The notes under the pieces: model-generated | The model's input: the letters and a program-made list of their open reading frames with translations, nothing else | Told to the model about the DNA's origin: nothing | The model's database searches: none | Part shown: positions 3,205 through 45,314 of the stretch, in pieces | How the letters are laid out: every line of letters starts with the position of its first letter | Numbering within the stretch: the first letter of the stretch is position 1 | Assembly (NCBI GenBank): GCA_016838895.1 | Contig: JAEKNU010000006.1 | Coordinates: 50,808 to 114,807 of the forward strand | From: Chloroflexota bacterium | GTDB lineage: Bacteria > Chloroflexota > Anaerolineae > Anaerolineales > Anaerolineaceae | DNA length: 64,000 nt | Direction: 5' to 3' | Position numbers and translations under genes: made by a program

Positions 3205-3546
3205 AAACAAAAAAACATTCATCCCAATCAGGGACGAACGTTTAATCCGCGGTACCACCCAACTTAGACTACCTTGCAGCGCCTATTAACAAAAAAATCC
3301 CGGATGAAACACCCGGGAAAATAGGTTAAGCCAGTCTCACTTTTTTTAGATACGCCGTTGAAATAACGGATATATCCTAAGCCCTGATAACGGTGGCTGT
3401 TCCGGCGAAGGCTACTGTTATTTCACCTTGCAACTCCGAGGTCCATTCGGATTTCTTGTACGGGCAGGTTCTCACCAATCTCTGCTCTCTGTGCCGCCTT
3501 GAGAAAACGTACTAGTCCTCTTCAAAGTTTTTTGAATATTTAACTG
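3205..3546 (-). promoter_or_regulatory. T-box leader, tRNA-Trp specific (specifier UGG), upstream of trpB2
   Basis: Minus strand: GGGTGGTACCGCGG (T-box core, 3247-3260), AGAGAGCAGAG and GGTGAGAACC stem I motifs, GAA-TGG-ACCTCGGAG specifier region (TGG at 3445-3443), terminator CGTTCGTCCC-TGATT-GGGATGAATG-T7 (3240-3216). Confidence 0.93.
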
Positions 3547-4523: not shown

Positions 4524-5993
4524 CTAGATTTTCTTGAAATCAATATAGCCGCGATCTACATCCACGGATTCCAACTGCACCCGAACACGATGACCCACAT
4601 CCACGTGTTCATAACCGGATACCAATTTGCCTTCTATAGGAATGTCCAGTAATCGCACCCAAGTTCCTTTTGATGCTGCACCGGTCACAATGGCGTTGAA
4701 TTCTTCTCCGATTTTTGAGGCAAACAATAATGCGGCTGCCGATTTGCTGACTTGCCGTTCAACTTTATTGACGGCATTTTCCTGCAAAGTACATTGTCGA
4801 GCGAGGGCTTCCAGTTCTACCATTCTATAAGGATTAGGTTGTTGGTCCAGAACGGCTTTTACCAAACGATGCGTAATCAAATCCGTAAAACGCCGGTTGG
4901 GTGCAGTGGAGTGGGTATAATCCTTAACCGCCAGGCCAAAATGTCCTGGTGCTTCATCCCCGGGATGTTCGGCCATATATTCTCCTGCACCCAGAAGTTT
5001 AATCACCGAGAGGGATACGTCCGGGAACCGCAGGGGATCCTTCTTACGCTGTAAGGTCAAGAATTTTTCCAGTGCTTTGGAATCAGGTGTTTCGGGCAAT
5101 GAATATTCGTATTCGGCTGCCAATTCAACAATACGTTCCCAACGCTTGGGTGAACGCACCACACGACGAATGGATGGAAACTGATTACGGCTAAGGAAAC
5201 GTGCCACCACGCCATTGGCTGTGATCATAAAATCCTCCACAATGGCCTTGGCACGGTTCTTTTTATCCACTTCCAGCCCCTGTAATTGATCACCAACAAA
5301 CAGGGGATGTGATTCAATCGTCTCCAGGCTGAGAGCCCCTTGCTGATGCCGGAATTGATGCATGCGTTGTGCAACGGTATCTTGCAGGCGAATGTTATCC
5401 GCCATGCCTTTCACCGCTAAAATAGCTTGCGGCGTGTCAATTTTCTCGTCCAGCCAGGCAGCTACACTGTTATAGGCCAGTTTGGCATGGCTAAAAACGA
5501 CAGCACGATAAACATCTTCATCAACGAGTACACCATTAGCATTGATGTGCATCTCGATCACTAGCGCAATACGTTCCGATTGAACATTCAGGGAGGTGTA
5601 TCCAGTGGATAATTGCTCGGGCAGCATGGGGAAAATTACGGCTGACGTATATACTGAGGTGGTATTGTGGCTGGCGTGTTGGTCAATAGCGCTTTCCTTC
5701 TTGACCAGGGCATCCACATCGGCGATGGCTACATAGAGGATGGTGCTGCCATCCGGGAGAATCTCAGCGGCGGTTAGCTGATCAATATCCAGTGAATCAT
5801 CGTTATCGATAGAAGACCATAATAAATGCTTCAAATTTCGCAGTTTTTGACCATCCTGTTCAGCCGGGCCAGAAATGCGGGATAATTCTTTCTCTACTGC
5901 TGCAGAAAAGTCGGGCTGCAAACCGCGATCAATCATCGCCTGATGAGCGATACGGGTTAATATGGCGCGGTGTTTATTTTCATTATGGTCCAT
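4524..5993 (-). CDS. RNB-domain ribonuclease (RNase II/R family)
   Basis: IDNDDSLDIDQLTAAE ... VAIADVDALV, YTHSTAPNRRFTDLITHRLV motifs. Confidence 0.88.
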   Translation of the reverse strand: MDHNENKHRAILTRIAHQAMIDRGLQPDFSAAVEKELSRISGPAEQDGQKLRNLKHLLWSSIDNDDSLDIDQLTAAEILPDGSTILYVAIADVDALVKKESAIDQHASHNTTSVYTSAVIFPMLPEQLSTGYTSLNVQSERIALVIEMHINANGVLVDEDVYRAVVFSHAKLAYNSVAAWLDEKIDTPQAILAVKGMADNIRLQDTVAQRMHQFRHQQGALSLETIESHPLFVGDQLQGLEVDKKNRAKAIVEDFMITANGVVARFLSRNQFPSIRRVVRSPKRWERIVELAAEYEYSLPETPDSKALEKFLTLQRKKDPLRFPDVSLSVIKLLGAGEYMAEHPGDEAPGHFGLAVKDYTHSTAPNRRFTDLITHRLVKAVLDQQPNPYRMVELEALARQCTLQENAVNKVERQVSKSAAALLFASKIGEEFNAIVTGAASKGTWVRLLDIPIEGKLVSGYEHVDVGHRVRVQLESVDVDRGYIDFKKI

Positions 5994-26828: not shown

Positions 26829-26856
26829 TTGACAAAAAAAAATTATTATGTAGAAT
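26829..26856 (+). promoter_or_regulatory. Promoter of the pyrFE-pyrD operon
   Basis: TTGACA - 16 nt - TAGAAT. Confidence 0.8.
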
Positions 26857-26865
26857 TGTCTGGAC

Positions 26866-26994
26866 ATGATTTGTAAATCAGACACTCAACGCCAATATAT
26901 AAATCAGGAATGCATAACTCCTGCAGTTGCCGTTTCGAAAAGAGCCGTTAGTGGCTCTTTTTTTTTTGTCCAATCCATTATTCAGGTGAATTAA
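26866..26994 (+). CDS. Candidate 42-codon leader peptide running through the attenuator
   Basis: ATG at 26866 to TAA at 26992-26994: MICKSDTQRQYINQECITPAVAVSKRAVSGSFFFVQSIIQVN; ends 1 nt before the pyrF ATG. Confidence 0.5.
   Translation: MICKSDTQRQYINQECITPAVAVSKRAVSGSFFFVQSIIQVN
26938..26967 (+). terminator. Intrinsic terminator/attenuator in the pyr leader
   Basis: AAAAGAGCC-GTTAGT-GGCTCTTTT in a run of 10 T, between promoter and pyrF start. Confidence 0.87.
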
Positions 26995-26995
26995 A

Positions 26996-28423
26996 ATGAA
27001 ATCATTTTTCCAACGTTTAGAGGATCGGGTTGACGCTGCTGACTCCATCCTTTGTATCGGGCTGGATCCACATCCAAATGAAATCAGCGAATTAACCCTC
27101 AAGGGGTTGGTTGAATTTTGTAAACCAATCATCCATGCCACCAGTAAATATGCTGCGGTATACAAACCTAATATGGCATTTTTTGAATCGCTGGGTGCTG
27201 AAGGATGGTTGGCACTGCAGGATGTTCTTGCTTTGATCCCTGATGAGATACCCGTTTTATTGGATGCTAAAAGAGGGGATATTGCATCAACGGCAAAAGC
27301 CTATGCGGCTGCTGCCTTTGAACATCTCGGTGTAGACGCGATGACTTTGAATCCGTTACTGGGACAAGATTCCATTCAACCTTTCCTTCAATATGATGAG
27401 AAAGGTTTTTTTTTGTTATGTAAAACATCCAACCCGGGTGCAGATGATTTTCAGAATCTGGCCATATCAAATGGAAAAGGTACTCAAAAGCTGTATGAAG
27501 TTATTGCAGAAAAAGCAAAAGGGTGGAATACCCATAGTCAGATTGGTTTGGTGATTGGAGCGACCCAAATTGAAGCTTTGAAGAAAATTCGCCAAAATGA
27601 TCCGCAAATCTGGCTGTTGGTGCCTGGTGTGGGGGCACAGGGTGGAGATCTGGAAAGCGCATTAAATAGCGGGCTGCGTGCGGATGGAAAAGGGATATTA
27701 CTACCTGTATCCAGAGCAATCTCTCAAGCAGAAGATCCCGAAAAAGCTGCCTCAGCATTATGCCAGGAAATAAATGAAATTCGCGAGAAGTTTATCGCAG
27801 TAAGCGCACCTATCGTTGAACCGAAAAATGACTTGTTGAGCCTGATTGGTGATCAATTGTTATCCAGTGGATGTGTGAAATTTGGTGATTTCACTTTAAA
27901 ATCCGGATTGCAATCACCAATTTATATCGATTTGCGTCGATTAATTTCTTATCCGGCGTTGATGAATCAAGTCTGTGAAGCTTTTACTGAAAAACTGAAG
28001 ACATTGCAATTTGATCGCATTGCCGGATTACCCTATGCGGCTTTACCATTGGCGACCTTAATTGGCCAGAAAGGTAATTGGCCAATGATTTATCCTCGCA
28101 AAGAGGTAAAAGCCTACGGTACCAAAGCCAGTTTAGAAGGTGTATACAAGGCGGGCGAAAAAATTGCGATTATCGATGACCTGGCTACCACAGGTGAATC
28201 CAAATTCGAAGCCATTGATAAACTGGTCGAGGCTGGGTTGAAAGTACAAGATGTTGTTGTATTGATTGACCGGCAGAGTGGAGCGGCGCAGACACTGGCA
28301 ACACGGGGATACCAATTACATGCAGTTTTGCAGTTCAATGATTTATTGCATTACTGGCGTGATACACATCAAGTTTCGGAAAACCAAATTCAAGCTGTAT
28401 TTCAATTCCTGGAGACCCACTAA
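26996..28423 (+). CDS. pyrFE: Fused orotidine-5'-phosphate decarboxylase/orotate phosphoribosyltransferase (order F-E)
   Basis: N half LCIGLDPHPNEI, LLDAKRGDIASTAKAYA; C half FGDFTLKSGLQSPIYIDLR, IAIIDDLATTGESKFEAI. Confidence 0.95.
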   Translation: MKSFFQRLEDRVDAADSILCIGLDPHPNEISELTLKGLVEFCKPIIHATSKYAAVYKPNMAFFESLGAEGWLALQDVLALIPDEIPVLLDAKRGDIASTAKAYAAAAFEHLGVDAMTLNPLLGQDSIQPFLQYDEKGFFLLCKTSNPGADDFQNLAISNGKGTQKLYEVIAEKAKGWNTHSQIGLVIGATQIEALKKIRQNDPQIWLLVPGVGAQGGDLESALNSGLRADGKGILLPVSRAISQAEDPEKAASALCQEINEIREKFIAVSAPIVEPKNDLLSLIGDQLLSSGCVKFGDFTLKSGLQSPIYIDLRRLISYPALMNQVCEAFTEKLKTLQFDRIAGLPYAALPLATLIGQKGNWPMIYPRKEVKAYGTKASLEGVYKAGEKIAIIDDLATTGESKFEAIDKLVEAGLKVQDVVVLIDRQSGAAQTLATRGYQLHAVLQFNDLLHYWRDTHQVSENQIQAVFQFLETH

Positions 28424-28425
28424 AT

Positions 28426-29460
28426 ATGTACTCACTCTATAAACCACTTGTATTCATGCTCAGTCCAGAATCGGCTCATCATTTGACTATTACAATGCTT
28501 AAAATCGCTGGAAATCTGGCACCGACCAGAGCGCTGATTAAAGCATTATACTTTCCGAAAATGAATGGTCCGGCAGTGGATGTAATGGGCCTTCATTTTG
28601 CCAATCCGATTGGTATGGCAGCCGGATACGATAAGGATGGCGATGGATGGCGTGGTTTATCAGCTCTGGGATTTGGACATATTGAATTGGGTACGGTTAC
28701 AGTGGATCCTCAGTCAGGGAATGCCAAACCGCGTATTTTCCGTATCCCGGAAGAGCGGGCAGTGATCAATCGATGTGGTTTTCCAAACCTGGGCGCTGAC
28801 TATATGTTGCAGCGTATGAATGGGCATAAACCCAAGGATTTGATATTGGGCGTCAGCATTGGCAAAAACAAAAATGTGCCATTGGAAAGAGCGGAAGAAG
28901 ATTATGTGCAATTGATGGAGTTGTTCGCTGAAAAATCCGATTACCTGGCAGTTAATGTCAGTTCGCCGAATACGCCTGGGTTACGTGAACTGCAAGTGAA
29001 AGGACGTTTTGATCGTTTATTACGTGCAGTAGCTGAGAAGCGAGCGGCTTTAGTATCAAAATTCGGTAAAAAAGTACCGGTTGTTGTCAAACTGGCTCCT
29101 GAGTTGCAGGAAAATGAGATGGATGAGTGTTTGTCAGTGATCATGGATACCGGATTGGATGGTGTGATTATCAGTAATACCAGTCTGGATCGACATGGCT
29201 TGAAGTCAGCATTGGGTGAAACAGAATATGGCGGTTTATCAGGGGCGCCGATCATGAAGCACAGTACTGAATTAATCAAAACAGTGATGAAACGTACCGA
29301 AGGAAAATTACCAATCATCGCCAGTGGCGGTGTAATGAATGTACATGATGCGCAGGAAAAACTTGATGCTGGTGCGAAACTGGTTCAGTTGTATACCGGT
29401 ATGATTTTTGAAGGCCCGGAAATGCCCGGGAAAATTATCCACAGCGGATTGCGATTGTAG
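28426..29460 (+). CDS. pyrD: Dihydroorotate dehydrogenase, class 2
   Basis: FANPIGMAAGYDKDGDGWRGLSALGFGHIELGTVT, NVSSPNTPGLRELQ, LPIIASGGVMNVHDA. Confidence 0.95.
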   Translation: MYSLYKPLVFMLSPESAHHLTITMLKIAGNLAPTRALIKALYFPKMNGPAVDVMGLHFANPIGMAAGYDKDGDGWRGLSALGFGHIELGTVTVDPQSGNAKPRIFRIPEERAVINRCGFPNLGADYMLQRMNGHKPKDLILGVSIGKNKNVPLERAEEDYVQLMELFAEKSDYLAVNVSSPNTPGLRELQVKGRFDRLLRAVAEKRAALVSKFGKKVPVVVKLAPELQENEMDECLSVIMDTGLDGVIISNTSLDRHGLKSALGETEYGGLSGAPIMKHSTELIKTVMKRTEGKLPIIASGGVMNVHDAQEKLDAGAKLVQLYTGMIFEGPEMPGKIIHSGLRL

Positions 29461-44945: not shown

Positions 44946-45141
44946 TTTTTTACTCCAGACAGATTTTGAGCAATGATTTGTTAAAATTTTACCTCTAAAT
45001 TTTGGTGTTTGCGTACATTTATTCCGATGGAAGTGGGAAATTCATATTTTTAAGTGTACCTTGCAAATTTGAAAATCCTCCTGATCTGAGGATGATATTA
45101 AATCTCTATACTTTTTAAATAATCTATGGTATAAGAAGAAT

Positions 45142-45314
45142 ACCTGCTGTATTTGTGATGATGCATCATCGGTTCTGGGCCAACACCTTATAAATGGGAC
45201 TCACATTCGCATCAGTGCCGCGATAGGCTTCGGCCAAGGCGAAGCTGATGGAGCGAGACCCGCCTGCGAAAGCAGGTTCAGAACCTTGCTTCACACGGTA
45301 CAGCGGGTCCTTTT
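45142..45314 (+). ncRNA. ssrS: 6S RNA-like (SsrS)
   Basis: Closing stem ACCTGCTGTA(45142-)/..TACAGCGGGT(-45308); inner stem GGTTCTG (45171-45177)/CAGAACC (45279-45285); central bubble with 3'-side hairpin CCTGC-GAAA-GCAGG; terminal stem CATCAG/CTGATG with GCTTCG/CGAAGC tip; TATAAG -10 at 45130-45135; U-rich end. Confidence 0.75.

Follow-up and report, generated by a model that had tools for sequence, protein, structure and literature searches.

Expression of the pyrFE-pyrD genes of an Anaerolineaceae bacterium (Chloroflexota) is very probably set by a translation-coupled, UTP-sensing attenuator that resembles the one of pyrBI, a textbook example in the enteric bacteria. The argument comes from DNA sequence comparison: it draws on the anatomy of the leader, the conservation of its reading frame, a U-rich zone ahead of the terminator, the absence of PyrR, the lack of excess antiterminator pairing, and targets that are exclusively pyrimidine genes. 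From these features we infer the transcription start site, the translation of the leader, and the response to UTP. The layout was recognised in a single stretch of 64,000 nucleotides (the window, meaning the whole stretch that was analysed) and recurs in relatives across the class Anaerolineae, where it is centred on pyrC and extends to the uracil permease gene uraA; neither was mentioned in the preliminary description of this DNA.

The pyrFE leader and its genome

The following features make up the locus:

26829..26834, + strand: -35 box TTGACA (sequence; TTGACA-16-TANAAT is also found upstream of pyrC in relatives)
26851..26856, + strand: -10 box TAGAAT (sequence; TAGAATTGTCTRGACATG is common to this leader and the G172 pyrC leader, L123)
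26863..26864, + strand: predicted transcription start (G/A), placed by its spacing from the -10 box, 2-3 nt 5' of the leader ATG
26866..26994, + strand: leader ORF of 42 codons (MICKSDTQRQYINQECITPAVAVSKRAVSGSFFFVQSIIQVN), passing through the terminator; frame kept across 48 leaders
26905..26923, + strand: small hairpin CAGGA..TCCTG 5' of the terminator (sequence), a weak candidate for an RNA polymerase pause hairpin
26915..26936, + strand: zone directly 5' of the terminator stem, U-rich in the leader family (U fraction 0.36 in the window)
26937..26967, + strand: intrinsic terminator (attenuator), with stem-loop 26937-26962 and 10-T run 26958-26967
26984..26989, + strand: Shine-Dalgarno-like AGGTGA of pyrFE (sequence)
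26996..28423, + strand: pyrFE fusion, orotidine-5'-phosphate decarboxylase / orotate phosphoribosyltransferase (profile matches)
28426..29460, + strand: pyrD, quinone-dependent dihydroorotate dehydrogenase (profile match), presumably in the same operon as pyrFE

The promoter is near-consensus (16-nt spacer, 11 of 12 positions matching), and a purine occupies the predicted start position in most relatives. The leader ATG at 26866 lies 9 nt 3' of the -10 box and 71 nt from the stem; its frame ends at a TAA (26992-26994), which one base separates from the pyrFE ATG at 26996. Promoter, ATG, frame, terminator, 10-T run, and a stop 1 nt before the gene had all been described from the sequence beforehand, and each lies where it had been placed. 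The scan assigns 11 pairs to the terminator, while shuffles of the 500-nt region are expected to yield 0.2 terminator-like sites, and no promoter-like site was seen between it and pyrFE. The small CAGGA..TCCTG hairpin is absent from the minimum-energy fold of the window leader. Taken alone, an open frame through this terminator is moderately surprising (shuffle P 0.18-0.32); it is the relatives that make it significant.

The downstream PyrF-PyrE fusion has 475 aa. It scores 408.7 bits against NF004034, under the 656-bit cut-off of that family, and exceeds the respective cut-offs of TIGR02127 and TIGR00336. A genome-wide pattern for the leader layout matched a single place in this genome, the pyrFE leader. 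When 424 kb were scanned for a promoter-terminator-gene layout, the other cases were two weak ones with a terminator only 26-34 nt 3' of the -10 box, a tRNA gene, and a T-box; a promoter-terminator match in L183 was rejected as a leader because it is tRNA-Leu. The pyrB of the same genome (L174/L142, G000:C66) lacks such a leader and is clustered with a dihydropyrimidinase gene (TIGR02033 above cut-off). The cluster possibly serves pyrimidine catabolism or a replaced pathway; it also holds an ORF that resembles PEP carboxykinase by eye. Elsewhere in the window, a T-box leader (3227-3534, - strand; RF00230, 113 bits, E 2.9e-24) and a 6S RNA (45138-45313, + strand; RF00013, 78 bits) were detected.

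A leader family in the Anaerolineae

The first gene of the pyr operon in most Anaerolineae is pyrC. Since pyrFE directly follows pyrB in most relatives, it needs no leader of its own there, and a search upstream of pyrFE alone accordingly returned few. The family was recognised once the region 5' of pyrC was searched: more than 25 relatives carry the same leader at this position, consisting of TTGACA-16-TANAAT, an ATG usually 8-12 nt further on, a terminator of the type GAGAGCC..GGCTCTC + T7, and then pyrC. The median distance from ATG to stem in the family is 84 nt. One relative with an unlinked pyrFE-pyrD, as in the window (G031), has TTGACA-16-TAAAAT, nine bases, an ATG, and a 49-codon frame that runs through AAAAAGAGAGCC-ATTCA-ATGGCTCTCTTTTTTT. 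The class-wide search extended the set to three more families, two with a pyrFE leader (L202, L212) and one with a pyrB leader (L218). It is plausible that pyrFE-pyrD kept its leader in the lineage of the window after pyrC and pyrB had left the operon.

Leaders were picked by promoter and terminator, apart from nine found with a pattern that requires an ATG and leaves the openness of its frame free; many of the genomes are MAGs. For the frame test, the ATG nearest to the -10 box within a range of 3-25 nt was used, whatever its frame. Of the 35 frames in the first set, 32 ended no more than 4 nt short of the stem or went further, against 12 and 15 for the +1 and +2 frames (Fisher p = 1e-7). After this result had been seen, the tolerance was widened from 4 to 10 nt from the stem base, and both figures are reported here. 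By the wider definition, the first-ATG frame reaches or passes the terminator in 48/48 leaders of an enlarged set (the first set, four leaders of genus g11, and the nine pattern-found ones), compared with 17/48 and 20/48 for the other frames. These leaders represent 23 genera and share ancestry, which genus weighting handles in part, so the genus counts are not fully independent; the per-genus shuffle null gave 11.8 +/- 2.3 and reached at most 21 in 2000 draws. Some leader frames stop at the base of the stem, often 1 nt short of it, and the others within the hairpin or past it; in leader L286 the stop lies 8 nt 5' of the stem. The in-frame ORF proposed in the preliminary description is thus conserved in relatives, and stops ahead of the hairpin, which would have counted against it, were not encountered in any of the 48 at the 10-nt tolerance.

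Neither the leader sequence nor the encoded peptide is conserved between genera. Substitutions are spread evenly over codon positions and indels are mostly multiples of three; because the peptide sequence varies, the case for coding rests on the openness of the frame. Two terminators were left out of the counts, a weak one in G348 and one in G182 (L144). The latter is a second terminator within the operon, located between pyrC and pyrB; from an ATG at its 5' base, a frame continues into pyrB with no stop. In front of the pyrB of G016 (L161) is a 22-codon ORF with a Shine-Dalgarno-led start; it ends at the terminator base, the same logic with an ordinary 5' leader. Upstream of pyrC at L031, L033, L128, L134, L143, and L274, all from other genera, there is no terminator, with a plain promoter or none, an apparent loss of the attenuator. 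The leader is missing from genera g13, g15, and g16.

A start codon close behind the promoter is the rule in this group, as the near-leaderless layout suggested earlier for the window would have it, with the start site itself predicted: the -10 box and ATG are 8-12 nt apart in 29/35 leaders, which leaves no room for a Shine-Dalgarno sequence and hence for a Shine-Dalgarno-led start. Leaders of f57 have longer 5' ends, with the ATG 17-22 nt after the -10 box. Where leaderless genes were detected in Chloroflexi genomes, they make up about 4.7% (PMC3160421). In the window genome, 213/297 genes carry an SD-like sequence and a few well-promoted genes look near-leaderless. Two candidates for such genes, both on a - strand copy, are L178 (start at 5418; TTGACA-16-TAAAAT-7-ATG, 801-codon frame) and L190 (8840; a 5/6 -35 box, 17 nt, TACAAT-9-ATG, 408-codon frame).

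The targets of the family were assessed with a pattern that combines promoter, ATG, and GAGCC, appropriately spaced. Across 147 family genomes it gave 26 matches, while the reversed pattern used as a control gave none. All 18 matches with a terminator precede pyrC or pyrFE, and the eight without one are tRNA or unrelated genes. In the class-wide run, where several matches without a returned locus lie outside the target assignments, further matches with a matching terminator precede pyrC, and two other matches with a terminator proved to be an unrelated gene and a tRNA. The sole match outside the class in the phylum-wide sample has no terminator. In G347 and G559, two other genomes of the order, the leader also stands 5' of Xan_ur_permease (uraA, uracil permease). 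Consecutive leaders of the same type (L318, L339, L340, L317) precede uraA and pyrC in these genomes, a predicted small pyrimidine regulon.

Proposed UTP sensing and its alternatives

U accounts for a fraction of 0.49 of the last 22 nt before the stem and 0.21 of the remaining leader, a difference found in 23/23 genera (p = 2.4e-7). The window leader shows it more weakly than most (0.36 against 0.24), and G031, at 0.32 before the stem, also lies below the family level; judged by base composition, the sensing zone of the window would be weaker or different. In genus g11, a conserved small hairpin, with one pair changed on both sides, sits just 5' of the U tract at a similar place to the hairpin of the window, and is a candidate pause hairpin.

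In the proposed mechanism, transcription would start 1-5 nt upstream of the leader AUG and allow a ribosome to load on a nearly leaderless RNA, while RNA polymerase would move fast through the U-poor first part before entering the U-rich stretch just ahead of the terminator. With plentiful UTP, the polymerase would not pause, the ribosome would stay behind, and the hairpin would form and stop transcription. With UTP in short supply, the polymerase would pause in the U-rich stretch and the ribosome would catch up; since the ORF extends to the stem base or through it, the ribosome would cover the 5' arm of the hairpin and allow read-through into pyrFE-pyrD in the window, or into pyrC-pyrB-pyrFE or uraA in relatives.

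An unlikely alternative is that pyrimidines are sensed with no ribosome involved, by NTP-dependent pausing and termination or by an RNA-binding protein, with the ORF incidental. A U-rich tract and a terminator could by themselves answer to UTP; frame conservation far above that of shuffles and of the other frames speaks against this reading, as does the pre-terminator RNA, which is hardly structured (mean z -0.7). The obvious protein would be PyrR: in attenuation of the Bacillus type, a terminator 5' of the pyr genes, the trait shared with the present leaders, answers to pyrimidines and needs both PyrR and an RNA binding loop. None of 61 relatives has a PyrR above the NF003549 cut-off, which 6 of 14 controls exceed. 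At the leader no Rfam family scores above its gathering score, and so no PyrR binding loop was found, in keeping with the preliminary description, in which no obvious one was seen; two weak sRNA matches at a permissive threshold (21.7 bits against a gathering score of 50, and 18.2 against 55) were discarded.

Still less probable is an amino-acid-sensing leader peptide of the trp/his type, in which a stall at control codons switches between antiterminator and terminator. A short leader ORF followed by a terminator would suit it, and the leaders are somewhat rich in Arg, Pro, Leu, and Phe. No single-residue run or conserved residue set occurs, however, and the largest residue makes up about 18% of a leader (median). 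The pairing search found no antiterminator above shuffles: the 5' arm of the terminator pairs with upstream RNA in 23/40 leaders, against 27.1 +/- 3.1 in shuffles. The lack of an antiterminator, the scarcity of leader structure, and the absence of conserved residue runs together argue against PyrR, a riboswitch, and amino-acid attenuation alike. The leader genes of amino-acid attenuators end >20 bp ahead of the terminator (PMC4824070); here neither control codons nor a terminator clearly 3' of the leader stop was found, the ORF reaching or passing the stem in every leader at the 10-nt tolerance, and the targets are only pyrimidine genes. That the promoter-terminator unit makes a small RNA, with pyrFE expressed through incidental read-through, is the least credible explanation, for although a terminated transcript of ~100 nt would arise, there is no other promoter between terminator and pyrFE, the unit recurs before pyrC, pyrB, pyrFE, and uraA, and its sequence is not conserved between genera.

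Relation to known attenuators and significance

Translation-coupled attenuation, proposed in the preliminary description, finds support in the frame conservation and in the missing PyrR. Passage through an intrinsic terminator before a pyr gene at low UTP, owing to a nearby ribosome, is also known from rph-pyrE of E. coli; there the translated gene is the full upstream gene rph, whereas here it is a dedicated short leader. The closer parallel is the E. coli pyrBI attenuator with its leader gene pyrL (Roland et al., 1988, as described in PMC5021804 and PMC4824070), where the role of the ribosome has been described (PMC5021804). pyrL has 44 codons, spans the terminator, and ends 3 nt before pyrB, compared with 42 codons and 1 nt before pyrFE in the window; its ATG lies 88 nt from the stem, against 71 nt in the window and the family median given above. 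The leaders share with pyrBI an ORF that overlaps or abuts a terminator before pyrimidine genes, a U-rich stretch (in the family), and a peptide sequence that is apparently irrelevant. They differ in their targets (pyrC-pyrB-pyrFE, pyrFE-pyrD, and uraA), in belonging to another phylum, and in an unrelated leader sequence. They also lack the Shine-Dalgarno-led leader start, which characterises the prototype, not the mechanism: in pyrL, ~20 nt that include a Shine-Dalgarno-like sequence precede the ATG on the transcript, and TATAAT and ATG are ~25 nt apart, against 8-12 nt in most of the Anaerolineae leaders. In the trpL attenuator of Sinorhizobium meliloti, too, the ORF begins right at the 5' end of the RNA; unlike the present leaders, it senses tryptophan via ribosome stalling and has a 14-codon peptide and a different terminator geometry (PMC7298713). 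Among the papers searched, none dealt with pyr attenuation in Chloroflexi and none combined a leaderless attenuator ORF with pyrimidine control. It is the near-leaderless start, with the AUG at the predicted 5' end, that would set the leaders apart from pyrL.

A broader proposal, which we consider probable, is that the Anaerolineae possess a pyrimidine regulon (pyrC-pyrB-pyrFE, pyrFE-pyrD, uraA) that evolved independently of that in Gammaproteobacteria and is run by near-leaderless leader ORFs that read UTP irrespective of their own sequence, with the AUG-adjacent start as part of the mechanism; such a start would give the ribosome the shortest way to RNA polymerase. That a class in another phylum shares this logic, down to the spacing between ATG and hairpin, suggests convergence, and some 50 natural variants are at hand for testing which features matter. 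The leaders may also offer a natural setting for a long-open question, namely how fast a ribosome starts on a leaderless message and how it couples to RNA polymerase. For the organisms themselves, the attenuator would offer an explanation of pyrimidine control in a group that lacks PyrR, and it yields a predicted regulon in a lineage that is ecologically common and little studied.
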